Assembly: GCA_023701135.1 (NCBI GenBank)
Contig: JAMPXP010000029.1
Location: forward strand, 1-45,100
DNA from: Desulfobacula sp.
GTDB taxonomy: Bacteria > Desulfobacterota > Desulfobacteria > Desulfobacterales > Desulfobacteraceae
Length of the DNA: 45,100 nucleotides
Direction: 5' to 3'
Of this stretch, positions 2,167 to 44,291 are shown piece after piece. Every line of letters starts with the position of its first letter. The stretch's first letter is position 1. A program made the translations under genes and the position numbers. The notes beneath the pieces were generated by a model that was not told the origin of the DNA, made no database searches, and saw only the letters and a list, made by a program, of their open reading frames with translations.

Positions 2167-2958
2167 ATGACTTTCCCTGTTCCGGAAAAACCAAAATCAG
2201 CATACAACCCCACGGCCCCGGCCGTGGAGCAGGCGGCCCAACTGCTTTTCTGCCTGGGGAAAAACAAAGGCCATGATATGGGACTCACCGCTATCTGCAA
2301 AGAAATCGGCATCCACAAAAGTAAGGGATATTCCATTTTAAACGCCCTGGCCAAATACGATCTCGTCACCCGGGACCATGCATCCAAAACCTATTCCCTG
2401 GGACCGGCCCTCATGCCCCTGGCCCAGAAAGCCAAGGAAAAATTCGATATCACCGCCGTTGCCAGGGACCATCTTCAGCAACTGGCCGAAGCCACAAAAA
2501 CCAGCGTGCTGCTGGGGATCATCTGCAATGATCAGGTGTTTATCACCGGGAAATATGACGGCAACGAATCGGTATCGGTCACCGTCAATCTCTACCAGTC
2601 CCTGCCCATCACCCACGGGTCCCACGGAAAAGCCGTTTTCGGATATCTTCCCCTAGAGGAACAGGAAAGGCTTCTCTCTTCAGGACAGGTCTTTTTTCAC
2701 GGCAGTCCTGAAGATTTCGATCCAAAGCGCCTGAAAAGCGAACTGAGCTTCTGCCGGGAAAAGGGATATGCCGTGGATCAGGGCAGGATGTCGGCGGGCA
2801 TCAATGCCGTCAGCGCTCCCATTTTTGACCATAATGACGAAGTAGCGGCCTGCGTGATCATCCTGGGCACCTTTCAGGAGGACCGGTTTGAGGGTATAGG
2901 AAAAATGATTGCCGAAACCGGCCGGGTGATCTCCCGGCAGTTGGGAGCAAGAATATAA
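2167..2958 (+). CDS. IclR-family transcriptional regulator
   Basis: A 263-residue IclR-family regulator. The N-terminal winged helix-turn-helix (about residues 15-75) contains GLTAICKEIGIHKSKGYSIL. The C-terminal effector domain follows, with the family's SLPITHGSHGKAVFGYLP-type segment and INAVSAPIFDH. The start is chosen at ATG 2167 because AGGAG at 2154-2158 sits 8 bases upstream. The longer open frame from 1996 would run through the promoter and operator. Ten bases separate it from the molybdoenzyme, so they form one operon. IclR proteins often sense aromatic or small organic acids; the effector here is unknown. Confidence 0.88.
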   Translation: MTFPVPEKPKSAYNPTAPAVEQAAQLLFCLGKNKGHDMGLTAICKEIGIHKSKGYSILNALAKYDLVTRDHASKTYSLGPALMPLAQKAKEKFDITAVARDHLQQLAEATKTSVLLGIICNDQVFITGKYDGNESVSVTVNLYQSLPITHGSHGKAVFGYLPLEEQERLLSSGQVFFHGSPEDFDPKRLKSELSFCREKGYAVDQGRMSAGINAVSAPIFDHNDEVAACVIILGTFQEDRFEGIGKMIAETGRVISRQLGARI

Positions 2959-2968
2959 AGGAGACACG

Positions 2969-5404
2969 ATGAAAAAGGATGGGGTAAAAATTATCAAAAC
3001 AACGACATGGTCCCCCGGCCCCGGTTGCCACGGCGGTTGCGGAATCCTGGTCCATGTCAAAGACAACAAGGTGATCAAGGTGGAAGGGGACCCGGACCAC
3101 CCCTGGAACCAGGGGCGGCTCTGCTCGCGGTGTCTTTCCATGACCCAGTACATGTACCATAAAGACAGGCTCAGAAAACCCCTGAAACGGATCGGTGAAC
3201 GGGGGGAAGGCAAATTTGAGGAAATTTCCTGGGATGAGGCCTTTGACCTGATTGAAGAAAAAATGAAAAAAATCCGGGAGGATTTCGGTCCCGAGTCCGT
3301 GATTTTCCACCAGGGCACCGGCCGGGACATCGGCGGCTGGATATCCATGCTGGCCTATGCCTACGGCAGCCCCAACTGGATGTTCGGGCTTTCCGGCATT
3401 TCCTGTTACACGCCCCGGCTCATGATGATGTCCATCACCCAGGGGGACTTTGCCGTGGTGGATGCCTCCCAGTGGCTTGAAAAAAGGTATGACGACCCTG
3501 AATACAAGATCCCCGAAACCGTCATCATCTGGGGCCAGAACCTGCCTGCCACCTGCCCGGACGGCTTTTTCGGCCACTGGTATGTGGATCTCATGAAACG
3601 GGGAACGGAACTCATCGTCATTGACCCGAGATGCACCTGGATCGCCTCCCGGGCCAAAATCTGGCTCCAGCTCCGGCCCGGGACCGATGCAGCCCTGGCC
3701 CTGGGGTTCATCCATGTCATGATCAAGGAAAATCTCATCAACATGGATTTTGTCGAGAAATGGACCAATTCTCCCTTCCTGGTCAGGACAGACGGCAAGA
3801 TCCCGGTTTTCTTGAAAGAAAAAGATATCAAAAAAGACGGGTCTGATTTGAATTTTGTGGCCCATGACGCGGTTTCCGGGGACTTCATGGTCTGGGATAC
3901 CACGGCCCAGGCCTATGACAAGGCCGGGGCCAAACCTTCCATGGACGGGGCTTTCACCCTCACCCTGGTGGACGGATCAAAGGCGGCCGTCAAGACTGTG
4001 TGGACCCTGTACAAAGAGAATGCCGAACAGTATACCCCGGAAAAAGTTCAGGACATCACCTGGGTACCGGCCGAAAAAATCCGCCAGGCGGCCCGCATGT
4101 ATGCCAAGGCCAAGCCCGGCGCCCTGCACTGGGGGCTTCCCATTGACACCATCCCGTCCACCGTACCCACCTCCCAGGCCCTCAACCATCTCTGGTGCCT
4201 TACCGGCAACCTCGACATCCCCGGCGGCAATGCCATTGCACGTTACGCCTTTGATGTCGTGACCTATCCCTATCATTCCGGCGGGGCCATCCTGAGTCTG
4301 CCGCCGGAGGTCATGAACAAGCGCATCGGCATCCATGACTATGGCTGCATCAAGGATTTCAGGGCCTGGGCCCAGCCCGACAAGGTCCTGGAACAGATTT
4401 TTTCCGGCAGCCCCTATCCCATCAAGGGCATGTGGATCCAGACGGCCAACCCCATTGCCTGCACGGGCATGGAGCCCCAAAAATGGCACAAAGCCATCAA
4501 ACAACTGGATTTCACGGTCTGTGTGGATCTGTTCATGACCCCCACGGCCATGCTCTGCGATGTGATCCTTCCGGCCGCCACCTTTCTGGAAAAAGATTCG
4601 CTCAAGGCCTGGTGGGTTCCTCTGAATGCCATCAAAAAAGTCGTGGATGTGGAAGAATGCAAATCCGACATTGAAATCAATCTTGAACTCTGCAAACGGT
4701 TCATGAAAGACTTCCCTTTCCCCAATACCCGGGTGCTGTTTGATTCCCTGCTCAAATCCGCCGGCATCACCTACCAGGAACTCTGTGACAACACCTGGAT
4801 GCTGCCGCCCAAGGGCCATCCCAGCAAACCCTATCACCGGTATGAAAGAAGCCTGCTGAGACCCGACAAAAAACCGGGATTCCGGACCCCTTCCGGAAAA
4901 ATCGAACTTTTTTCCTCCTGGCTGGAGAAATGGGGCCTCGACCCCCTGCCCTACCATGAAGAGCCACCCTACAGCCCCGTTAGCACCCCGGACCTGTTCA
5001 AGGACTATCCGCTGATTCTGGCCACTGGCCGGAGAATGGGACCTTTTTTCCATTCCGAACACCGGCAGATCCCCTGGCTCCGGGAACAGCAGAAGGAGCC
5101 GGTCCTGGAAATCCACCCGGATACGGCCAGGAAATACGGGGTCGAGCACGGTGAAAAGGTCTGTGTCGAAAACTGGCTGGGAAAAATAACCGTCAAGGCC
5201 CTGGTGACCCCGGTCATCCACCCCGAAGTGGTCATGGCGGAACACGGCTGGTGGTTCCCGGAAAAAGAAGGCAAAGAACCAAGTCTCTTCGGCGTCTGGG
5301 ACGTCAATGTCAATCAGCTCATCCCCATGGGCCATGAAGGAAAAGCCGGTCTGGGGTCTCCCATCAAGAGCATGCTCTGCAAAGTATACAAGGCGAAAGG
5401 ATAA
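2969..5404 (+). CDS. Molybdopterin oxidoreductase large subunit, DMSO reductase superfamily
   Basis: An 811-residue catalytic subunit that should bind Mo or W bis-molybdopterin. The order is an Fe-S N-terminal domain (about 12-65), a molybdopterin core (about 70-560) and a C-terminal dinucleotide-binding domain (about 690-805, containing LATGRRMGPFFHSEHRQIPW). The iron-sulfur motif is odd: Cys20, Cys24, Cys52 and Cys55 are present, but residue 17, where the usual first Cys of C-x2-C-x3-C-x27-C falls, is Gly. Cys146 in GLSGISCYTPR is a plausible metal ligand. No twin-arginine signal is seen, so it is likely cytoplasmic. SD AAAGGAG precedes ATG 2969. Substrate is unknown; acetylene hydratase-like or hydroxylase-like roles are possible but not shown. 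Confidence 0.87.
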   Translation: MKKDGVKIIKTTTWSPGPGCHGGCGILVHVKDNKVIKVEGDPDHPWNQGRLCSRCLSMTQYMYHKDRLRKPLKRIGERGEGKFEEISWDEAFDLIEEKMKKIREDFGPESVIFHQGTGRDIGGWISMLAYAYGSPNWMFGLSGISCYTPRLMMMSITQGDFAVVDASQWLEKRYDDPEYKIPETVIIWGQNLPATCPDGFFGHWYVDLMKRGTELIVIDPRCTWIASRAKIWLQLRPGTDAALALGFIHVMIKENLINMDFVEKWTNSPFLVRTDGKIPVFLKEKDIKKDGSDLNFVAHDAVSGDFMVWDTTAQAYDKAGAKPSMDGAFTLTLVDGSKAAVKTVWTLYKENAEQYTPEKVQDITWVPAEKIRQAARMYAKAKPGALHWGLPIDTIPSTVPTSQALNHLWCLTGNLDIPGGNAIARYAFDVVTYPYHSGGAILSLPPEVMNKRIGIHDYGCIKDFRAWAQPDKVLEQIFSGSPYPIKGMWIQTANPIACTGMEPQKWHKAIKQLDFTVCVDLFMTPTAMLCDVILPAATFLEKDSLKAWWVPLNAIKKVVDVEECKSDIEINLELCKRFMKDFPFPNTRVLFDSLLKSAGITYQELCDNTWMLPPKGHPSKPYHRYERSLLRPDKKPGFRTPSGKIELFSSWLEKWGLDPLPYHEEPPYSPVSTPDLFKDYPLILATGRRMGPFFHSEHRQIPWLREQQKEPVLEIHPDTARKYGVEHGEKVCVENWLGKITVKALVTPVIHPEVVMAEHGWWFPEKEGKEPSLFGVWDVNVNQLIPMGHEGKAGLGSPIKSMLCKVYKAKG

Positions 5405-6783: not shown

Positions 6784-8388
6784 TCACGGCGCCGGGGGAG
6801 ACAGCCCGTCCGGCGGCACGATATATTCATTGAGAAGAATCCGGTTCATGCATTCTTCAACGGGATTTTCCGTGTCCACCAGAATGCGCTGTTCCGGCCC
6901 GATCTCGGTTAAGGCCTCAAATCCTTTGCGAAAATCATCAAAATGAACCAGCCGGGCATCGGACAGGGACGGCCGGCTTTCCCGGCGGGCCAGGCGTTTT
7001 TTCAACACCTTGTCCGGGGCCGTGCATTCAACAAAAAAAATGGTCGCATCCATGTCCGCTGCCAGCCGCAGGGCTTCTTTCCTAAAATGCCGGGTACCGA
7101 AGGTGGCATCCAGAACCACGGAATTGCCTTTTTCGATTTCTTCCTGAGCCCTGAGAAACATACGGCCGTAAGTCAGGGCCGTGGCCCCCCGGGTGTAGAT
7201 ACCGCTCTCAAATGCCTGGCGGGAAGGGTCCGTGGATGGTGCTGCGAACAGTTCTTTGCGGATGACGTCGGACCGGAGCACCGAAATACCGAAGGCCCGG
7301 CCGATTTGCCCGGCAATGGTGCTTTTACCCGAAGCCGGTATCCCGCATACCACCCACAGAACCGGCCGGGTGAATCCCACGGCATAGCTGTAGGCAAGAT
7401 TCAGATATGTTTCAATTTCGGCTTGCAGACGGGAAGTCTCCGGTTCCGTCACATCCGTTTCCCGGACCCGGATGCAGGCCACCTTTAATCTGACCATGGC
7501 CCGATAACATTTGTAAAAACCCAGGAGGACAAAGAGGTCTGCATCCCCGGTTTGACGGGCAATTTCGGCAAGCAGGTCCTGTGCGGTGTCCGAATGTCCC
7601 CGGGCATCCAGGTCCATGGCCAGGAATGCCAGATCCGAGGCCATGTCCTCATACCGGAACCGGTGGTTGAATTCGATGCAATCAATAATCCGGACCTGGT
7701 CATCCATGAAATAGATATGTTCGGCCCGCAAATCACCGTGGCAGTCCAGAACCTTTCCGGATCGGACCCGCTTGTCAAAAAGGGGCCGGTGCCGCTTGAG
7801 AAAAGCCAGGCAGGCGCTGCGGACGATGTTGAACAGACGCTCGTCAAACAATTGTCCGGCAAAATCCGCTGTCTGGGTGAAATTTTCCATACAATTTTTG
7901 GAAACCGTGGCCCAAGTTCCCAGGTCCGCCTCGGGGGCCGGTTCGGGGGGCCGGTCGTAGAACCGGGCCAGCAAACCGGCCAGGGCATGAATCTGCCTTT
8001 TATCTATCCCGCCGATTTCCAGTCGATGGGACAGGGTAGAGCGTTCAGGCAGACGCCGCATTTTCACTGCATATTCCACGACCTCTCCAGGTCCTTCCAG
8101 ATGATAGGTCTCATTTTCAAGGCAGATGGGGACCACGCCCAGATACACATCCGGGGTAAGCCGGCGGTTCAGTTCTATTTCCTGCCGGCAGAAATGAAGG
8201 CGTTTTTCCAGGGTCGTGAAATTCAGAAATCCAAGGTCCAGAGGCTTTTTGAGCTTATAGGCCAGATCGCCGGCCAGGAAAATTTTTGAGATATGGGTTT
8301 CCCGGATCTCGACATCGACGGCCGGATGGGGGTAGAAAGCCGGACTCGCCATGGCTTGAACCAGTTTTTCAAAAGTATGGAAACCCAT
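6784..8388 (-). CDS. Fusion of aminoglycoside-phosphotransferase-like and AAA/P-loop kinase domains
   Basis: A 534-residue two-domain protein. The N-terminal part (about 1-330) is phosphotransferase-like, with the catalytic block LDCHGDLRAEHIYF and IIDCIEFNHRFRYEDMASDLA. The C-terminal part is a P-loop kinase with Walker A GIPASGKST and DATFGTRHFRKEA. This matches the COG2187-COG0645 fusion known in many bacteria, whose substrate is unknown. The start is set at ATG 8388 (MGFHTFEKL), with AGGG five bases upstream. The frame extends 25 codons further with no similarity. It is operonic with the universal stress protein. Confidence 0.8.
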   Translation of the reverse strand: MGFHTFEKLVQAMASPAFYPHPAVDVEIRETHISKIFLAGDLAYKLKKPLDLGFLNFTTLEKRLHFCRQEIELNRRLTPDVYLGVVPICLENETYHLEGPGEVVEYAVKMRRLPERSTLSHRLEIGGIDKRQIHALAGLLARFYDRPPEPAPEADLGTWATVSKNCMENFTQTADFAGQLFDERLFNIVRSACLAFLKRHRPLFDKRVRSGKVLDCHGDLRAEHIYFMDDQVRIIDCIEFNHRFRYEDMASDLAFLAMDLDARGHSDTAQDLLAEIARQTGDADLFVLLGFYKCYRAMVRLKVACIRVRETDVTEPETSRLQAEIETYLNLAYSYAVGFTRPVLWVVCGIPASGKSTIAGQIGRAFGISVLRSDVIRKELFAAPSTDPSRQAFESGIYTRGATALTYGRMFLRAQEEIEKGNSVVLDATFGTRHFRKEALRLAADMDATIFFVECTAPDKVLKKRLARRESRPSLSDARLVHFDDFRKGFEALTEIGPEQRILVDTENPVEECMNRILLNEYIVPPDGLSPPAP

Positions 8389-8487
8389 GCTGACCCTGCC
8401 GTTTCTTTTATATTGAATCCTTCCGTTCCATTTAAAAATAGCATGACCCCGCGCGAAAAGCAAACAGGGCGCCCTGGGATTTTTTGA

Positions 8488-8503
8488 TGGCGCGGCTATT
8501 GCT
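8488..8503 (+). promoter_or_regulatory. Sigma-54 (-24/-12) promoter for the PAS activator gene
   Basis: TGGCGC-N5-TTGCT, with the obligatory GG-N10-GC spacing. It matches the TGGCAC-N5-TTGCW consensus at ten of eleven positions. It lies 75 bases upstream of the sigma-54 activator start at 8578. The start of transcription would be near 8514. Confidence 0.6.
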
Positions 8504-8529
8504 GTCCGGCCAAAAAGGTTTTATGATGA

Positions 8530-8543
8530 TTGCAATATTGCAA
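8530..8543. promoter_or_regulatory. Perfect palindrome TTGCAATATTGCAA
   Basis: A 14-base perfect inverted repeat in the leader of the PAS-type sigma-54 activator, just after its -24/-12 promoter. With flanks it matches 14 of 17 positions of the palindrome at 42767-42783 upstream of the HdrD-like gene. It is a probable binding site for a Fis-type activator. Lying downstream of the promoter, it might act in negative autoregulation. Confidence 0.5.
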
Positions 8544-8577
8544 CCATATTAATTTTTTTACCATAAGAGAAATTTAA

Positions 8578-9924
8578 ATGATCAATCCAAAAAAAATATT
8601 CGGCCCCCTGACCGAAGATACCACCAAGGTTATCCTTGAAAGCATATCCGACGGTGTGTTTACCATAGACTACAACTGGGAGATCACCTCCTTTAACCGG
8701 GCCGCGGAAGAAATTACGGGCATCTCGCGCAGGGAGGCCATGGGCCGCCACTGCTGGGAAGTCTTTCGCTCCAATATGTGTGAAGAAGACTGCGCCCTGA
8801 AAAAAACCATGGAACAAGGGAAACCCTTTATAAATTCATCGGGCTATATTATCAGCAGTGAAAAGAAAAAAATTCCGGTCACGGTTTCCACATCCCTGTT
8901 AATCGATAAAAAAGGGGATGTTATCGGCGGAGTGGAAACCTTCAGGGACCACTCCCTTGTGGAACAGCTCAGAAAAGAACTCACCACGGCCTTCAGGGTG
9001 GAGGACATCATCAGCAACAGCGATGCGATGAAAAAAATATTCAGCATTCTGCCCCAGGTGGCCGACAGTGATTCCTCTGTTCTGATTGAAGGCGAGACCG
9101 GCACGGGAAAAGAACTCCTGGCAAGGGCCATTCACAATATGAGCCCGAGAAAGAACAAACCCTTCATCGCCATTAATTGCGGTGCCCTTCCCGACACCCT
9201 CCTGGAAAGCGAATTGTTCGGCTATAAAAAGGGGGCCTTCACCCATGCTGTAAAGGATAAACCCGGGCAGTTCAGCCTGGCTGACGGCGGCACCCTGTTG
9301 CTCGATGAAATCGGAGACACCAGTCCGGCCTTCCAGGTAAGCCTTCTTCGAGTACTCCAGGAACATGAATTCACCCCCCTGGGGGGCCTGGAAAAGGAAA
9401 AAACCAATGTCCGCATTATTGCCGCCACCAATACGGATCTCAGCAAACTTGTGGCCCGGCAGACTTTCCGTCAGGATCTCTACTACCGGATCAATGTGAT
9501 CCGGATATTTCTGCCGCCTCTTCGCCAACGAATGGAAGATATCCCCCTTCTTGTGGAGCAGTTTGTTCAAAAACTCAATATGCGCCAGGGAAAATCCATT
9601 CATGGGGTTGAGGCCCCGGTTCTTCAGACGCTCATGTCCCAGAATTTTCCCGGAAATATCAGGGAGCTTGAAAACATTATCGAGCATGCCTTTGTGCTTT
9701 GCTCCGAAGGGCATATAAAAATGAGCCATTTGCCGGGGTGGCTCACGCCGGATTCCGGCCCGAATGACGACGGAGGCAATGATCCTGTAAAGGCGGCACA
9801 GATCAAACGCATCAATGACGCCCTCTCCCGCCATAATTTCAGCCGGAGCGCTGCGGCAAAGGATCTGGGTATCCATAAGAGCACCCTTTTCAGGCAGATC
9901 AAAAAACTGGGAATGACCCTTTAA
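8578..9924 (+). CDS. PAS-domain sigma-54-dependent transcriptional activator
   Basis: A 448-residue enhancer-binding protein. Residues 15-125 form a PAS sensor with three cysteines (Cys59, Cys68, Cys72) that could be redox or metal sensing. The AAA+ domain (about 145-380) has Walker A GETGTGKE (172-179), a Walker B near 238-245 and the arginine segment FRQDLYYRINVI. The Fis-type helix-turn-helix is at the C-terminus (SRSAAAKDLGIHKSTLFRQI). The sigma-54 contact loop reads GAFTHA (219-224) where the family has GAFTGA. No receiver domain is present, so it senses directly. It probably activates the NifX-like gene behind the promoter at 10069. Confidence 0.88.
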   Translation: MINPKKIFGPLTEDTTKVILESISDGVFTIDYNWEITSFNRAAEEITGISRREAMGRHCWEVFRSNMCEEDCALKKTMEQGKPFINSSGYIISSEKKKIPVTVSTSLLIDKKGDVIGGVETFRDHSLVEQLRKELTTAFRVEDIISNSDAMKKIFSILPQVADSDSSVLIEGETGTGKELLARAIHNMSPRKNKPFIAINCGALPDTLLESELFGYKKGAFTHAVKDKPGQFSLADGGTLLLDEIGDTSPAFQVSLLRVLQEHEFTPLGGLEKEKTNVRIIAATNTDLSKLVARQTFRQDLYYRINVIRIFLPPLRQRMEDIPLLVEQFVQKLNMRQGKSIHGVEAPVLQTLMSQNFPGNIRELENIIEHAFVLCSEGHIKMSHLPGWLTPDSGPNDDGGNDPVKAAQIKRINDALSRHNFSRSAAAKDLGIHKSTLFRQIKKLGMTL

Positions 9925-23180: not shown

Positions 23181-24902
23181 ATGCTGCCGGAAAAACCATG
23201 GCATAAATTCTACTCAGATGTTCCCCGTTCCATCGATTATCCCGATGTCACCATGTATGAATCCCTTTTGCGGTCCGTCAACCGGGTGCCGGACAAGATT
23301 GCCTGGGATTTCATGGGAACCCTTTGCACCTATCAGGCCTTTGGAGATCAGATTTCAAAATGCGCCGATGCCCTGTCCCATCTCGGTTTAAAAAAAGGGG
23401 ACGCCATCACCATTTCCATGCCCACCACTCCCCAGGGTATTATCTGTTTTTACGCCGCCAACAAAATCGGTGCCGTGGCGTCCATGATCCACCCTTTGTC
23501 AACGGAAGCGGAGATCGCCTTCTATCTCGAAATTTCCAATTCCACCATGGCCCTGACCCTGGACGCCTTTTACGGAAAATTCAAGCAGGCCATGGAAAAA
23601 ACAGCCTGCAAGACCCTCATCCTGGCAAAGATCGGTGATTACCTGTCCCCGGTGAAAAAATTCGGGTTCTGGCTTACCAAGGGCAGAAAAATTCTCAGGG
23701 TCCCGGAGGATAGCGCCGTTCATTTCTGGGATCAGTTGATGAACGGTTCTTTTCCAAAGGCTCCCCAGGCCTCCATGTCAACGGACGATACCGCCGTCAT
23801 CCTTTACTCCGGGGGAACCACGGGCAAACCCAAGGGAATCATGCTGTCCAATATGAATTTTATTTCAGAGGGCATGATGGTGGCGGCCTGGGGCAATCTT
23901 GGCGAAAATGACGCCATCCTGGCCATTCTGCCCATATTCCACGGCTTCGGGCTCGGGGTCTGCATCAATGCCGCCTTCATGGGCGGCGGGAAAAGCATCC
24001 TGGTGCCGCAGTTCACCCCGGAACTCGTGGCAAAACTCATCAAAACCAAAAAGCCCAATTTCATTATCGGCGTCCCCACCCTTTATGCGGCTTTAAACAA
24101 GAACAGGGATTTCCAGCAGGCCGACCTGTCCTGCATCAAGGCCGCCTTTTGCGGGGCCGATACCCTACCGACCACGGTAAAGAATGAATTTGAACGGCTT
24201 GTCAAAAAAAGGGGCGGCAATGTCAAGCTGCTTGAAGGCTATGGCCTCACCGAAGCCGTCACCGCCATCATGGCCACCCCCCTGGACCATTACAGGGAAG
24301 GCAGCATCGGTATTCCTTTTCCGGACATGGACGCCAAGATTGTCCTTGAGAAGACCCTGACCGAAGCCCAGCCGGGAGAAGACGGTGAAATCTGCCTGTC
24401 CGGCCCGGCCGTCATGAAAGGATACCTGAACCGGAAAGAAGAAACCGATGCTGTATTGAAAATTCATGAAGACGGGAAATTGTGGCTCCATACCGGAGAT
24501 ATCGGGACCCGGGATGAGGACGGATTTTTTTATTTCAGGCTCCGCCAGAAACGCATGATCAAATCTTCGGGCATGAATGTCTACCCAGCCCAGGTGGAAG
24601 AGGTGCTCCACAATCACCCGGATGTTTCGGATGCCTGCGTCATCGGGGTGCCGGATATGGACCAGGTGGAGCGGGTCAAGGCCTTTGTGGTCTTGAAACC
24701 CGGCATCAGCGCCAGCCCGGATAAGGAAAAGGAACTCATTGCCCACTGCCGGAAGGACCTCATCAAATGGAGCTGCCCCAGAAGCATCGAATTCAGGGAA
24801 ACCCTCCCCCTTACCCTGGTGGGAAAGGTTGCCTATAAGGTGCTTCAGGACCAGGAGATCAAAACCCTCCGCCAACAGGGTGAATACACAGGAGACAAAT
24901 AA
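23181..24902 (+). CDS. AMP-forming acyl-CoA ligase
   Basis: A 573-residue acyl-adenylate-forming enzyme that would activate a carboxylic acid to its CoA thioester. The ATP motif VILYSGGTTGKPKG is at about 207-219. EGYGLTEAV and GDIGTRDEDGFFYF are the second and third core motifs, and the C-terminal catalytic Lys lies in VGKVAYK. AGGAGG at 23165-23170 serves ATG 23181. It is the first gene of the operon with the dehydratase. Substrate class (fatty or aromatic) cannot be fixed from sequence alone. Confidence 0.9.
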   Translation: MLPEKPWHKFYSDVPRSIDYPDVTMYESLLRSVNRVPDKIAWDFMGTLCTYQAFGDQISKCADALSHLGLKKGDAITISMPTTPQGIICFYAANKIGAVASMIHPLSTEAEIAFYLEISNSTMALTLDAFYGKFKQAMEKTACKTLILAKIGDYLSPVKKFGFWLTKGRKILRVPEDSAVHFWDQLMNGSFPKAPQASMSTDDTAVILYSGGTTGKPKGIMLSNMNFISEGMMVAAWGNLGENDAILAILPIFHGFGLGVCINAAFMGGGKSILVPQFTPELVAKLIKTKKPNFIIGVPTLYAALNKNRDFQQADLSCIKAAFCGADTLPTTVKNEFERLVKKRGGNVKLLEGYGLTEAVTAIMATPLDHYREGSIGIPFPDMDAKIVLEKTLTEAQPGEDGEICLSGPAVMKGYLNRKEETDAVLKIHEDGKLWLHTGDIGTRDEDGFFYFRLRQKRMIKSSGMNVYPAQVEEVLHNHPDVSDACVIGVPDMDQVERVKAFVVLKPGISASPDKEKELIAHCRKDLIKWSCPRSIEFRETLPLTLVGKVAYKVLQDQEIKTLRQQGEYTGDK

Positions 24903-24903
24903 G

Positions 24904-26016
24904 ATGAAGGATATTGAATGTTTTCATGATGCCGTCAGCCATATCCCTGAAACGGCTTCGCAAATCAAAAAGCAGGGCCGGAAAATCATGGGATATCTCT
25001 GCTCCTATGCACCGGAAGAACTCATCCATGCGGCTGGGTTTCACCCCATGCGGCTGTTCTCCTCCAAATCCGACATTGTTCTGGCCGAGAATCATCTCCA
25101 GTCCTATTGCTGCTCCCTGGTCCGGGGGATTCTGGAAGACAGTCTGAACGGGCGGCTGGATTTCCTTGACGGGGCCGTGTTTCCTCATACCTGTGATTCC
25201 ATGCAGCGCCTGAGCGATATCTGGCGCATGAACAACCGGTATGCCTTTTTTGCCGACGTGGTGCTTCCGGCCAAATTGAATACAGAGAGCGCCGGCATCT
25301 ATATGACGGAGGTGCTGGCCCGGTTTAAAAAAGATCTTGAAGCCGCCATTGGAAAGGACATCCCGGACACGGAGATCAAGGCCTCCATTTCCCTGTTCAA
25401 TCGGATCCGCAAAAACCTGTCGGCCCTCTATGATCTGAATTCCCGGCATCCCGGCCTCATCAGCGGCCGGGATCTTTACGCCCTTGTCAAAGGGTCCATG
25501 ATCATGGACCGGAAAGAGGCGGCGGACCGCCTGGCAAATATTGTTTCACACCTTGAAAAAATGAGCCCCCCGGTCAAACCTGGCAAACGGCTCATTCTTT
25601 CCGGCTCCGTCTGTGACACCCCGGACATTTTTGACGCCATTGAAACGGCGGGCGGTGTCCTGGTGGGGGATGATCTCTGCACGGGTCAGCGCTGGTTTGA
25701 AGGGCCGGTGATGGAAGACACCCCTCCCCTGTCCGCCATGGCCCAACGATACCGGGACCGGGTGACCTGTCCGGCAAAGCATTCGGGCCTCACCACCCGG
25801 GCCGAGAACCTGGTTTCCCTGGTGCAAAAAACCCGGGCCGACGGGGTGGTGTTTCTTATGCTGAAATTCTGTGATCCCCATACCTTTGACTACCCCTATC
25901 TTAAGGAACGTCTCGACGGGGCGGGGATCAAAAGCATGATCTTCGAAATGGATGACCAGCAGCAGAGCCTGGCCCAGTTCTCTACCCGTATTGAAACCTT
26001 TATTCATATGATTTAG
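24904..26016 (+). CDS. 2-hydroxyacyl-CoA dehydratase / benzoyl-CoA reductase-type subunit (first)
   Basis: A 370-residue subunit of the HgdB/BcrC/FldC superfamily, which carries a 4Fe-4S cluster and performs ketyl-radical dehydration or reductive dearomatisation. The family's LIHAAGFHPMRLF start and the segment PHTCDSMQRLSDIW (cluster Cys) are visible, as is FLMLKFCDPHTFDYPYLK near the C-terminus. The start ATG 24904 follows the ligase stop by one base, with GGAGA upstream. It forms a dimer with the next gene product in known enzymes. Confidence 0.88.
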   Translation: MKDIECFHDAVSHIPETASQIKKQGRKIMGYLCSYAPEELIHAAGFHPMRLFSSKSDIVLAENHLQSYCCSLVRGILEDSLNGRLDFLDGAVFPHTCDSMQRLSDIWRMNNRYAFFADVVLPAKLNTESAGIYMTEVLARFKKDLEAAIGKDIPDTEIKASISLFNRIRKNLSALYDLNSRHPGLISGRDLYALVKGSMIMDRKEAADRLANIVSHLEKMSPPVKPGKRLILSGSVCDTPDIFDAIETAGGVLVGDDLCTGQRWFEGPVMEDTPPLSAMAQRYRDRVTCPAKHSGLTTRAENLVSLVQKTRADGVVFLMLKFCDPHTFDYPYLKERLDGAGIKSMIFEMDDQQQSLAQFSTRIETFIHMI

Positions 26017-26031
26017 ATAAGGACACGCGAT

Positions 26032-27261
26032 ATGCCGGAAAAACCCAATGAAACCGTAAAAATAAAATCCGCCAAAAAAATGCGGGATCTCATGACCGCC
26101 TATTATCTTGAGGCCCTGAGCGCGGGACAGAACCATAAACCAGTGGCCTGGATCACCTCGGGCGGTCCTGTGGAGCCCCTGGTGGCCATGGACATCATCC
26201 CGGTCTACCCTGAAAATCACGGGGCCATGATCGGGTCCGCCAAAATGGGGGAAGACCTTTGTGCCAAAGCCGAGGATATGGGCTACAGTTCCGATCTGTG
26301 TTCCTACGCCAGGGCCGATATCGCCTGTTCCGTGGTCAAGGGCGGTCCCATCGGCGGGCTGCCCAAGCCGGACATGCTCATCTGCTGCAATAATATCTGC
26401 GGCACGGTCCTAAAATGGTATGAGGTCCAGGCAAGGTTTTACAATGTTCCCCTGTTCATTTTTGACACGCCCATCTGCCATGGGGCCTATACCCCGGAGA
26501 TCGCCAGATATGTCAGGACCCAGATTGATGAATATATTGCCTTTCTTGAAACCGTGACCCAAAGAAAATTGGACCATGACCGCATGAACGAGGTGGGCAA
26601 ACTGTCCCTTGAAGGGCAGCGCCTGTGGCAGAAGGTTCTCAATACCACGGCCCACAAGCCCTCACCCATGTCCGCCTTTGATGCCTTTTTCTTTCTGGCC
26701 CTCATCGTGACCCTGAGGGGCACAAGGATAGCCGTGGATTTTTACAAGGAACTGATAGAAGAAATGGAGCAGCGGATCAGGGACGGGGTCAGCAGCGTCC
26801 CCAATGAACGATACCGGCTGCTCTGGGACAACCTGCCGGTCTGGCACCGGCTCAAATGGCTGTCTTCCAAATTTTCAGATCACCATGCCTGTCTTGTGGC
26901 CGACACCTATACCTCGGCCTGGTGTGGAACCATCAAATATATTGATGAGAATCGTTTTCTGGATTCCATGGCTGAAGCCTATACCCGGATTTATCTGAAT
27001 ATCGGCGTGGACCAAATGGCCGAGGAAGTGTTGAACATGATCCGGTTTTATGATATTGACGGGTTTGTCATGCATTCCAACCGGTCCTGCAAGCCCTATT
27101 CCTTCGGCCAGATGGACATCATGAGGATCGTCCGGGAAAAAACCGGGATCCCGGTTCTCATGATCGAGGCGGACATGACGGATCCCCGGAGTTTTTCAGA
27201 ATCCCAGGTGGAGACAAGGATCGATGCGTTCATGGAAATCATCAAACAAAGGAGGGGGTAA
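26032..27261 (+). CDS. 2-hydroxyacyl-CoA dehydratase / benzoyl-CoA reductase-type subunit (second)
   Basis: A 409-residue partner subunit of the HgdA/BcrB/FldB type. The segment AWITSGGPVEPLVAMDIIPVYPEN is the conserved opening block. Cysteines at DLCSYARAD and LICCNNICG are candidate cluster ligands. It lies 15 bases after the first subunit. Its pairing with a single activase gene favours the dehydratase type over the four-subunit class I benzoyl-CoA reductase. Confidence 0.88.
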   Translation: MPEKPNETVKIKSAKKMRDLMTAYYLEALSAGQNHKPVAWITSGGPVEPLVAMDIIPVYPENHGAMIGSAKMGEDLCAKAEDMGYSSDLCSYARADIACSVVKGGPIGGLPKPDMLICCNNICGTVLKWYEVQARFYNVPLFIFDTPICHGAYTPEIARYVRTQIDEYIAFLETVTQRKLDHDRMNEVGKLSLEGQRLWQKVLNTTAHKPSPMSAFDAFFFLALIVTLRGTRIAVDFYKELIEEMEQRIRDGVSSVPNERYRLLWDNLPVWHRLKWLSSKFSDHHACLVADTYTSAWCGTIKYIDENRFLDSMAEAYTRIYLNIGVDQMAEEVLNMIRFYDIDGFVMHSNRSCKPYSFGQMDIMRIVREKTGIPVLMIEADMTDPRSFSESQVETRIDAFMEIIKQRRG

Positions 27262-27262
27262 T

Positions 27263-28018
27263 ATGAAATTTGATCTTGAAGGAAAAGTCTGTCTGGTGAC
27301 CGGCGGCAGCCGGGGCATCGGCTTTGAGATTGCCCGATCACTCCTGGCTGAAAAGGCCCGGGTCATCATCTGCGGACGGAAGGCAGACTCCCTTGAAAAG
27401 GCGAAAGAGGCCCTTTCAGCCCCGGAAAACCTCATGACGGTCCAGGCCCATATCGGCAAACCCGAAGACGTGGATAGGCTTTTTGAAACCATTGGCAAGA
27501 CCTATGGAAGGCTGGATATCCTGATCAACAATGTGGGCATGAACCTGATCACACCGGGCATTGCCGACCTTGATCCGGGCCTGTGGCAGAAAATCATGGA
27601 TACCAATCTGGGCGGCACCTTCCTGGTTTCCCGGAAAGCCGCCTTTATGATGCGGGCCCAAAACCAGGGAAAAATCGTCACTATTTCCTCTGTCGCCGCC
27701 ACCAAAGCCTCGCCCGGCATGGGAATCTATGGAATTGCCAAGGCCGGGATCGAAATGATGACCAAGGTTCTGGCCTCGGAACTGGCCGCCTTCAACATCC
27801 AGGTCAATGCCGTGGCACCGGCCATGGTCAGGACCAAATTTTCAGAGCCCTTCTGGTCCAATGCAGAATTGCTGGCCCATATCACCAAAACCATTCCCAT
27901 GGGACGGATCGCCGAAATTGAGGATGTGGTAAAACCGGTTTTATTCCTTGCTTCCGAAGGATCTTCCTATATCACCGGCCAGACCCTCATGGTGGACGGA
28001 GGATCAACCGCCATATGA
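27263..28018 (+). CDS. Short-chain dehydrogenase/reductase
   Basis: A 251-residue classical SDR. The NAD(P) motif TGGSRGIG is at 13-20 and NNVG at 89-92. The catalytic residues are Ser142 or Ser143, Tyr156 and Lys160. It probably oxidises or reduces a hydroxyacyl-CoA or oxoacyl-CoA intermediate of this pathway. ATG 27263 starts one base after the previous stop with GGAGGGGG upstream, and its stop overlaps the activase start (ATGA). Confidence 0.9.
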   Translation: MKFDLEGKVCLVTGGSRGIGFEIARSLLAEKARVIICGRKADSLEKAKEALSAPENLMTVQAHIGKPEDVDRLFETIGKTYGRLDILINNVGMNLITPGIADLDPGLWQKIMDTNLGGTFLVSRKAAFMMRAQNQGKIVTISSVAATKASPGMGIYGIAKAGIEMMTKVLASELAAFNIQVNAVAPAMVRTKFSEPFWSNAELLAHITKTIPMGRIAEIEDVVKPVLFLASEGSSYITGQTLMVDGGSTAI

Positions 28019-28782
28019 TCTGCGCCGGCATTGACATCGGTTCCATCACGGCCAAGGCGGCCCTGATAAAAGACAAAACGCTTCTGGGCACCCTGGTCAT
28101 CCCCACGGGATACCATCACCTCAACGCCGGCATCCGGGTCTTTGATGCCCTTCTGGAAAAAACCGGCCTTTCCCGGGCCGACATCCATGCCATCGTGTCC
28201 ACGGGCTATGGCCGATCCAGCATTGATTTTGCAGACAAGGCCATGACGGAAATCATCTGCCACGGCACCGGCGCCCATTTTTTAAATCCCGGCATCCGGG
28301 GCATCATTGATGTGGGCGGCCAGGACAGCAAGGCCATTCTTCTGGACAACCAGGGCCGGGTGGAGAATTTTGCCATGAATGACAAATGCGCGGCCGGCAC
28401 GGGAAGATTTCTGGAGGTCATGGCCCGGGCCCTGGAGGTGGACCTGGACCGGATGGGGGAATTCAGCAGGAGGGCCGATCACCCTTCAAAAATCAGCAGT
28501 ATCTGCACGGTATTTGCGGAGTCCGAAGTCATTTCCATGATTGCCCGCCAGGAAAAAAGAGAAAATATTATTGCCGGTATCCATGATGCCGCCGCAGCCC
28601 GGGTGGCCATCCTGGCCACAAAAATCAAAATGAAGGAACCTGTTATGATGACCGGCGGTGTGGCAAAAAACACCGGCATGGTGACGGCCCTTGAAAAACG
28701 TCTGGGCATGCCCCTCATTATTGGAACTTTTGCCCAGGAAAACGGAGCCATCGGCGCTGCCGTGCTGGCATCCGGGCTTTGA
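28015..28782 (+). CDS. 2-hydroxyacyl-CoA dehydratase activase (HgdC-like ATPase)
   Basis: A 255-residue BadF/BadG/BcrA/BcrD-type ATPase. It is a homodimer with one 4Fe-4S cluster and feeds low-potential electrons to the dehydratase at the cost of ATP. Cys125 in NDKCAAGTGRFLE and Cys164 in SSICTVFAESEV match the two cluster ligands of the HgdC family. The ASKHA-fold motifs GIDIGSITAK and IIDVGGQDSKAI are intact. It overlaps the SDR by four bases and ends the operon. Confidence 0.93.
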   Translation: MICAGIDIGSITAKAALIKDKTLLGTLVIPTGYHHLNAGIRVFDALLEKTGLSRADIHAIVSTGYGRSSIDFADKAMTEIICHGTGAHFLNPGIRGIIDVGGQDSKAILLDNQGRVENFAMNDKCAAGTGRFLEVMARALEVDLDRMGEFSRRADHPSKISSICTVFAESEVISMIARQEKRENIIAGIHDAAAARVAILATKIKMKEPVMMTGGVAKNTGMVTALEKRLGMPLIIGTFAQENGAIGAAVLASGL

Positions 28783-42880: not shown

Positions 42881-42968
42881 CCACACATCAGGAATTTTGG
42901 ATTCCGGCAAAGGCCGGATTCCCATAACCAGAAGCAATCCAAAAGGACCATAAAAGAAAGGAAGTCCC

Positions 42969-44291
42969 ATGACGAAAGCTGTCATCAAGCTTGGAAACAA
43001 AAAACGGAAAAATATTTTTTTGGAAAAGGTAAAAGCTCTGCTGCCCGAAGGCGGCAATCTGAATGCCTGCCTGACCTGCGGGGCCTGCGCCTCCGGGTGC
43101 CCTGCCACAGGCCTGAATAACATGGACCCCAGAAAATTTCTTCGAATGGCGGCCCTGGGCATGGATGAGGAAATCATCAAATCCGACTGGCCCTGGATGT
43201 GCACCATGTGCCAGCGTTGTATCTATGTATGTCCCATGAAGATAGATATTCCGCAGTTGGTTTTTAATGCAAGAACCCTTCGCCCCAGGGAGGAAAGACC
43301 CAAAGGCATCCTCGGGTCCTGCGACATGGCCTTGAGAAACGAGAGCACCAGCGCCATGGGAACATCCCCGGAAGATTTTGAATTTGTTGTCCAGGATATT
43401 CTGGAAGAATACCGGGAAGCCCAGCCTGAATTTGAAGACATGGAAGCCCCCATTGACAAGGAAGGGGCGGAATTCTTCCTAAACCAGAATTCAAGGGAAC
43501 CGGTCACGGAGCCGGATGAGCTGATCCCTTTATGGAAAATCCTTCACCTTGCCGGAGTGAACTGGACTTACGGCAGCCGGGGATGGGCCGGGGAAAACTA
43601 TTGCATGTTCCTGGCCGACAACGAGGCCTGGAAAAAAATCACCTCCACAACCGTGGACCAGGCCAACAAGCTCGGGTGCAAGACCTTTCTCAATACCGAG
43701 TGAGGCCACGTCACCTTCTCAGTCCGGGCCGGAGTGAAAAAATTTAATCTTGAACACAATTTTGAAATCAAAAATTTATATGAATATTATGCCAAATGGA
43801 TCCGTGAAGGCAAATTAAAGGTCAATTCCGACTGGAACAAAGACCTTAAAATCAAATTCACGGTTCAGGACCCCTGCCAGATCGTCCGGAAAAGCTATGG
43901 TGACCCCATTGCCGAGGACCTGAGATTTGTCGTCAAATCTGTTGTGGGCGAAGAAAATTTCGTGGACATGCAGCCCAACCGGTCCAACAATTATTGTTGC
44001 GGCGGCGGCGGCGGATTCCTGCAGTCCGGGTTCAAAGAGCAGCGCCTTGAATACGGAAAAATCAAAGACGCCCAGATCAAGGCCACAGGGGCTGACTATT
44101 GCATTGCAGGCTGTCACAACTGCCATGCACAGATCCACGAACTCAGCGAGCATTACGGGGGTAATTACCCGGTGGTGCATCTGTGGACTTTGATCTGCCT
44201 GTCGTTGGGAATACTGGGCCCCAACGAGCGGGAATACCTGGGGGACGACCTGAAAGAGGTCAATGTATTCCACCCCGAAACCGCCCATTAA
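42969..44291 (+). CDS. HdrD/DsrK-like iron-sulfur protein with in-frame TGA (probable selenocysteine 245)
   Basis: One frame of 440 codons interrupted only by TGA at 43701-43703. The N-terminus has two ferredoxin motifs (Cys34, 37, 40, 44 and Cys78, 81, 84, 88). Two CCG-type halves follow, as in HdrB/HdrD: the second has Cys303, Cys343-Cys344-Gly and Cys382-x2-Cys385. The TGA falls in NTE-U-GHV, where I expect related CCG proteins to have ECGH, so it replaces a conserved Cys. A SECIS-like hairpin follows. The protein should carry electrons or reduce a disulfide-like substrate. SD AAAGGAAG precedes ATG 42969. Reading it as two genes or a pseudogene is possible but less likely, since the frame stays conserved. 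Confidence 0.85.
43716..43740 (+). promoter_or_regulatory. Candidate bacterial SECIS element
   Basis: The arms 43716-43725 and 43731-43740 form a ten-pair stem with two mismatches (G-G and C-A) and a five-base apical loop GGGCC. The loop begins 22 bases after the TGA, within the spacing of known bacterial SECIS hairpins, and has the GG that SelB contacts in others. Folding was done by eye. Confidence 0.6.

Follow-up and report, generated by a model that had tools for sequence, protein, structure and literature searches.

What does a gene produce when its reading frame runs through a TGA codon? The window, as we call the whole 45,100-nt stretch analysed here, is the entire contig C27 of a 4.8-Mb draft genome, and on its plus strand positions 42969-44291 hold a single 440-codon frame with the TGA at 43701-43703 as its sole interruption (Table 1). 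Standard gene callers are expected to break each TGA gene of this kind in two. From sequence comparison, we conclude that this gene of a probable sulfate reducer almost certainly encodes one full-length iron-sulfur protein, the TGA being read as selenocysteine (Sec). The nearest matches found among named loci come from Desulfobacula MAGs, whose protein is 98% identical.

Table 1. Coordinates of the gene, its protein domains and its RNA element in the window.
Feature	Position	Strand	Remarks
Predicted selenoprotein gene, HdrC-HdrB fusion (HdrD/TmcB/HmcF/DsrK-like)	42969..44291	+	440 residues including Sec245, TAA stop
Likely ribosome-binding site AAGGAAG	42958..42964	+	Upstream of ATG 42969; sequence inspection
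HdrC-like two-[4Fe-4S] ferredoxin domain, residues 31-93	43059..43247	+	C34 C37 C40 C44; C78 C81 C84 C88
TGA codon 245, predicted to be read as selenocysteine	43701..43703	+	Cys in relatives (ECGH motif)
His247	43707..43709	+	Aligns with EtfD His583, given as a noncubane cluster ligand in the accessible text of PMC13083937
SECIS-like hairpin	43719..43737	+	Arms 43719-43726 / 43730-43737, loop GGC 43727-43729
In-frame GTG	43734..43736	+	Inside the hairpin 3' arm
Complete CCG domain	43875..44123	+	C303, C343-C344, C382, C385; noncubane cluster ligands by homology

An HdrC-HdrB fusion in one frame

The original prediction had described the 440-codon frame and its coordinates, the NTE-TGA-GHVTFSVRAG context of the TGA and the in-frame GTG at 43734, all of which we confirmed on the sequence. 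Because this GTG lies within the 3' arm of a hairpin, it is implausible as a second start. Taken separately, the part before the TGA matches Fer4 dicluster families and the part after it CCG (PF02754); the read-through protein has both matches. The HdrD-like character that had been proposed agrees with this architecture and with fold matches to HdrB and HdrC. The claim that the downstream part keeps all CCG cysteines holds for CCG domain 2 (C303, C343, C344, C382, C385) but not for CCG domain 1, which is degenerate and has the TGA-encoded residue 245 as its sole Cys-equivalent. Consistent with this, a domain search of the read-through protein gave a single CCG match, at residues 298-389; the two complete CCG domains, with two noncubane clusters, that define HdrD and HdrB are not found in the window protein. 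The predicted product is an HdrD-type fusion of HdrC and HdrB in which one CCG domain is complete and the other degenerate.

Selenocysteine machinery and recurrence of the TGA

Profile searches of the genome found all four genes for selenocysteine use named in the original prediction, selA (612.9 bits), selB (352.9), selC (tRNA-Sec, 76.8) and selD (369.8), each above its family cut-off. The co-occurrence of selB carries little weight here, as selB is matched at E <= 1e-40 in 278 of the 297 genomes of a phylum sample. The genome's own selD (L029, C39:8198-9124) itself has one in-frame TGA (G-U-A context), and the hairpin after it, GTCC-GGG-GGAC, resembles the element of the HdrD-type gene.

Two further copies of the gene are present in the same genome, 70% and 61% identical to the window copy, each with one in-frame TGA at E-U-G-H, and three more distant paralogues have E-C-G-H, with a Cys codon instead of the TGA. 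The expected Cys at residue 245 is thus present in homologues, and the ECGH motif is otherwise invariant. A survey of 145 related genomes at E <= 1e-60 gave a match in 133; among the matches listed (150 rows), 148 contain a TGA, two of them with a TAG as well, and the two without a stop are second copies in genomes G042 and G133. At 80 named GTDB loci, codon 245 is TGA in 82 of 83 matches and TGC in the other. The phylum sample of 297 genomes, searched at E <= 1e-100, gave 55 matching rows from 38 genomes; 43 of the rows contain a TGA, 10 are free of stops, and the other two contain a TAA and a TAG, respectively. The TAA and TAG copies have TGC and TGT at codon 245, respectively, and the four no-stop copies that were read there have TGC in each case. 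Pooled codon by codon, 118 of 127 copies have TGA and nine have TGC or TGT; four genes had been fetched twice, and merging them leaves TGA in 114 of 123 distinct copies and Cys in nine. The counts are not independent, since the samples overlap and were selected for their similarity to the window protein. Tandem TGA copies occur in two Desulfamplus contigs (L140:6001-7314 and 7779-9092; L153:1102-2415 and 2837-4147).

Comparison with L081, the nearest relative, gives a dN/dS of about 0.014 upstream of the TGA and about 0.005 downstream. Among the five relatives compared, three have a lower value after the TGA, one (L082) has about 0.025 after versus about 0.021 before, and one (L087) gave no value. 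Purifying selection therefore acts as strongly after the TGA as before it.

A covarying SECIS-like hairpin

Bacterial SECIS elements are hairpins placed shortly after the UGA, with a G in the apical loop. In the window gene, an 8-bp hairpin with a three-base loop begins 15 nt downstream of the TGA. Seven of its eight pairs form; the fourth is a G.G mismatch, which recurs in five others of the 80 elements compared, a set obtained by thinning the 118 TGA copies to at least five differences apart. Across these elements 95.0% of cells are paired and five of the eight pairs have two-sided changes; the covariation score is 0.284, against 0.121 when shuffled and at most 0.044 when slid. Four of five covariation measures beat all or nearly all shuffles, and for the fifth, based on further standard pair types, shuffles were as high in 432 of 500. 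RNAalifold unaided predicts seven of the eight pairs. Individual exchanges can be followed in the copies: a pair that is G-C in most copies is A-U in the third copy of the same genome, and one that is otherwise U-A is C-G in three distant copies. TGA copies form six to eight of the eight pairs (all eight in 78/118), the nine Cys copies one to five.

The nucleotide sequence is also constrained at this place. Among 113 TGA copies more than 60% identical, which include four duplicates, a single third base within the commonest codon box is seen only at codons 252, 253, 255 and 256, four of the 186 fourfold sites; codon 251 comes next. Folding of the single element is weak: the window hairpin alone is only moderately better than shuffles (z -1.71), a 63-nt stretch of the window folded alone gave z 0.02, and an Rfam scan of the window at gathering thresholds returned zero matches. 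The case for the hairpin thus rests on comparison, and the covariation adds what we regard as positive evidence for selenocysteine.

Exchange between selenocysteine and cysteine

A FastTree phylogeny of 75 copies was built with column 245 excluded; the set was thinned from 130 copies, 118 with Sec and 12 with Cys, and retains every Cys copy. Rooted on L005/L006, the tree requires at least seven Sec/Cys changes, and suggests that Sec was gained early and then reverted to Cys several times, though single regains may also have occurred. Eight genomes of the phylum sample (G129, G180, G214, G223, G274, G312, G414 and G432) have TGA and non-TGA copies together, and four (G210, G297, G347 and G390) have non-TGA copies only. 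This distribution would fit selenium-dependent isozymes. One homologue, L064 (G138 C1:3598151-3599449), 81% identical, has a TAG at codon 230 in addition to the TGA at 245. Pyrrolysine was considered for this TAG and rejected, the PylS match being 20.4 bits against a cut-off of 178.15 in a genome rated 79% complete; the TAG is perhaps a sequence error or marks a broken copy.

Alternative readings of the TGA

An in-frame TGA within a draft genome naturally raises the possibility of a pseudogene or of a sequencing error. We give this reading next to no chance: the same codon is TGA in so many distinct copies, the hairpin covaries, and selection does not slacken after the TGA. Recurrence in many other genomes makes the sequencing error that could have undone the original prediction very unlikely, and a change of genetic code was rejected along with pseudogene and error. 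An open frame by itself cannot reveal which residue is inserted, and the TGA could in principle be decoded as a different amino acid or be read through non-specifically. This too is very improbable, since all nine non-TGA copies have Cys codons, the sel set is complete and the hairpin accompanies the TGA. Somewhat less remote, yet still improbable, is a gene with two products, in which the UGA would act as a stop when selenium is short, giving a 244-residue HdrC-like ferredoxin, and read-through would give the full protein. The N-terminal part is indeed a complete two-cluster domain, but the ferredoxin domain ends about 150 residues before the stop, which in the model comes after a strand and ahead of a helix, and the eight genomes with mixed copies already have a second copy without TGA. 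This gene and its genome show three sequence marks of a bacterial selenoprotein: a UGA aligned with the Cys of homologues, a hairpin after the UGA and a complete selA/selB/selC/selD set. We are thus highly confident that the TGA at codon 245 specifies selenocysteine and that the gene encodes a selenoprotein.

Fold and place of Sec245

An AlphaFold2 model of the full-length protein (32-row alignment) has a pLDDT of 86.0 and a pTM of 0.87. Its best matches among PDB structures are HdrB chains (the first at E 1.3e-6, target TM 0.65), followed by a LutA-LutB model and HdrC. The best NCBIfam scores are to HmcF (177.9 bits, cut-off 750), TmcB (177.5, cut-off 735) and DsrK (126.5, cut-off 400), all three significant and all far below the equivalog cut-offs. 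TIGR03379 (GlpC, of the anaerobic glycerol-3-phosphate dehydrogenase) scored 30.4 bits and did not reach its cut-off of 279.9.

The nearest full-length profile match in the PDB is 9ojn, EtfD of Mycobacterium smegmatis, which aligns over nearly the whole length of the protein. With hand-counted numbering, residues 245 to 248 align with EtfD Cys581, Pro582, His583 and Cys584, and Ala167 and Trp199 take the places of EtfD Cys503 and Cys538. According to the accessible text of PMC13083937, Cys503, 538, 581 and 584 are the ligands of a linear cluster, D1, and His583 with five Cys those of the noncubane cluster D2. Among the D1 ligand positions, residue 245 alone is retained in the window protein; FadF and DgcB are described as lacking the D1 cysteines (PMC13083937, in the same text). 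Sec245 stands two residues ahead of His247, the counterpart of the cluster-binding His of EtfD. In the model, residue 245 directly precedes helix 246-258, as C382 directly precedes helix 383-395, in agreement with the EtfD alignment. A MAFFT alignment that includes paralogue L007 speaks against it, with Sec245 at the second rather than the first Cys of the CxxC in CCG domain 1. Under this placement its counterpart would be HdrB Cys81, a bridging ligand displaced by substrate in the account of PMC13083937, as far as it is accessible.

Relation to known systems

The selenoprotein family is already in print, functionally uncharacterised in the text available, as "Fe-S oxidoreductase-like" with a UGH motif, or "GlpC". 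PMC13188914 includes an "Fe-S oxidoreductase-like protein, PTHR43551, UGH" among its high-confidence predicted selenoproteins, citing Kryukov and Gladyshev 2004. Like the window protein, the members of that family are Fe-S proteins in which Sec is the U of a UGH motif, and the family is reported from Deltaproteobacteria beside hdrA and frhD (PMC13188914, PMC1794560, in the accessible parts). In those parts it is listed as predicted, without function and with FrhA and FrhG as operon partners, whereas many relatives here lie with metV/metF; we place the window protein with that family (listed example WP_174406253.1) by motif and description. A Sec-containing hdrD4 is also mentioned for Desulfobacterium autotrophicum HRM2 (PMC2702500, accessible text), likewise an HdrD-group protein of a Desulfobacteraceae sulfate reducer, and by this likeness in description the window family probably includes it. 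What we add is the covariation of the SECIS-like element, the Sec/Cys history, the placement in the CCG fold and the metVF link; neither this link nor the Sec placement was found in the literature searched, with most subscription papers outside it.

TmcB, HmcF and DsrK are part of membrane complexes and use Cys. The Cys paralogues of the same genome resemble the Sec protein in having an ECGH-type motif and one complete CCG domain. Both parts of the protein share the fold of HdrB and HdrC of HdrABC-MvhAGD, and relatives of the window gene have HdrA and MvhD neighbours; HdrB has two noncubane clusters (PMC13083937, accessible text), while one CCG domain of the window protein lacks its ligands. 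Mycobacterial EtfD differs in its membrane domain, its linear [3Fe-4S] cluster and its Cys at the position of Sec245 (PMC13083937, in part). The gene set of the relatives' clusters is like that of the Hdr-type methylene-THF reductase of Moorella and Sporomusa (MetVF-HdrCBA-MvhD), and the Moorella HdrA has a GltD-type part, as does the one beside the third copy of our genome; in the accessible description HdrB and HdrC are separate, whereas here they are fused and contain Sec (PMC9430772).

Gene neighbourhood and possible role

Read by eye, the ORFs of the window include no HdrA, MvhD, Met or other redox-partner gene adjoining the Sec gene. In the same genome, the second copy adjoins a ParA-like gene, and the third is preceded by metF and followed by an HdrA/GltD fusion (1475 aa) and then a MetV-like gene, all on one strand, the MetV label coming from similarity to a PF12225 protein where NCBIfam gave no match. 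A search for a second Sec found none in the fusion protein (L062) or in a molybdopterin protein of L063. Within 6 kb at the 80 named loci we detected HdrA-like proteins at 32, FlpD/MvhD-like at 32 (some of the HdrA- and FlpD-like matches being weak or on the opposite strand), MetV-like at 25, CGGC-domain proteins at 15 and, with the genome's own MetF as query, MetF-like at six; flanks exceed 3 kb upstream in 64 and downstream in 63 of the 80. In a looser clustering of neighbours, a family whose tested member is a PF02219 MTHFR occurs at 24 of the 80. The Desulfonema magnum locus (L133) reads HdrA-like, MvhD-like, Sec gene, MetV-like.

Published sets offer a parallel: MetVF reductases with HdrCBA and MvhD in Moorella and Sporomusa (PMC9430772), a fused HdrBC with hdrA, mvhD and metVF in marine Chloroflexi (PMC5736913) and metF-HdrABC in Seep-SRB1g (PMC10553843), each as given in the accessible text. 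Together with the neighbours of the third copy and of the relatives, they lead us to read the Sec protein as an HdrBC-like arm of HdrA-type modules, which we consider rather probable, the partner of the window copy being inferred. For the joint proposal, a selenoprotein with HdrC-HdrB architecture and a role in an HdrA module, our confidence stays at a comparable, moderate level because that role is unsupported by the window copy's own neighbourhood.

The chief competitor is a real selenoprotein that serves another system, either as a DsrK-like reductase of DsrC-type trisulfides or disulfides, or as a quinone-linked arm of the TmcB, HmcF or EtfD kind. The top NCBIfam scores go to HmcF, TmcB and DsrK, albeit far below cut-off, EtfD is the nearest full-length profile match, and no hdrA neighbour was seen at the window copy; the third copy and many relatives, on the other hand, sit with hdrA, mvhD and met genes in the above tally of HdrA-, FlpD/MvhD-, MetV-, MetF- and CGGC-type neighbours. 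We regard this alternative as a serious one, with a substantial chance of being right that falls short of even.

On the sequence evidence above, SelB and tRNA-Sec insert Sec at UGA245, guided by the hairpin. As an HdrBC arm, the protein would probably work as follows. Electrons would enter the two cubane clusters of the N-terminal part and, by homology, pass to the noncubane [4Fe-4S] cluster of CCG domain 2; the cluster of CCG domain 1 would have been lost, leaving one chalcogen, Sec245, near its former site. Acting jointly, Sec245 and the noncubane cluster would most likely make a disulfide-type bond or break it by reduction, either in a partner or in a small thiol. The protein probably serves as the HdrBC arm of HdrA-MvhD modules, tied in many relatives to the methylene-tetrahydrofolate reductase MetVF; the window copy, with no such neighbour, would probably pair with an HdrA encoded elsewhere or act alone. 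In its most specific form the proposal is speculative and, taken whole, rather unlikely: a selenolate would replace an entire lost noncubane cluster, Sec245 facing the His-ligated noncubane [4Fe-4S] cluster would make a mixed selenium/iron-sulfur disulfide centre, and this would be the arm of an HdrA-MvhD-MetVF complex in methyl-THF oxidation by sulfate reducers. Frequent Sec use in the sampled nearby genomes, the hdrA-metVF link and the likely Sec site by the noncubane cluster together give a testable role, proposed to lie in the energy metabolism of sulfate reducers, to a family listed for years as a predicted selenoprotein without function.

Two further features of the neighbourhoods were observed. 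A CGGC-domain protein (PF08821) is encoded directly upstream of the Sec gene at 14 of the 80 named loci, between L084 and L115, on several Desulfobacula and Desulfotignum contigs; none was seen in the window. Upstream of the Sec gene, window positions 23181-28782 and L070:1459-6464 have a similar run of genes which, named by eye from translations, with the L099 ATPase alone domain-scanned, looks like a CoA ligase, two 2-hydroxyacyl-CoA dehydratase-like subunits and a BadF-type ATPase, to which the window adds a short-chain dehydrogenase-like gene.
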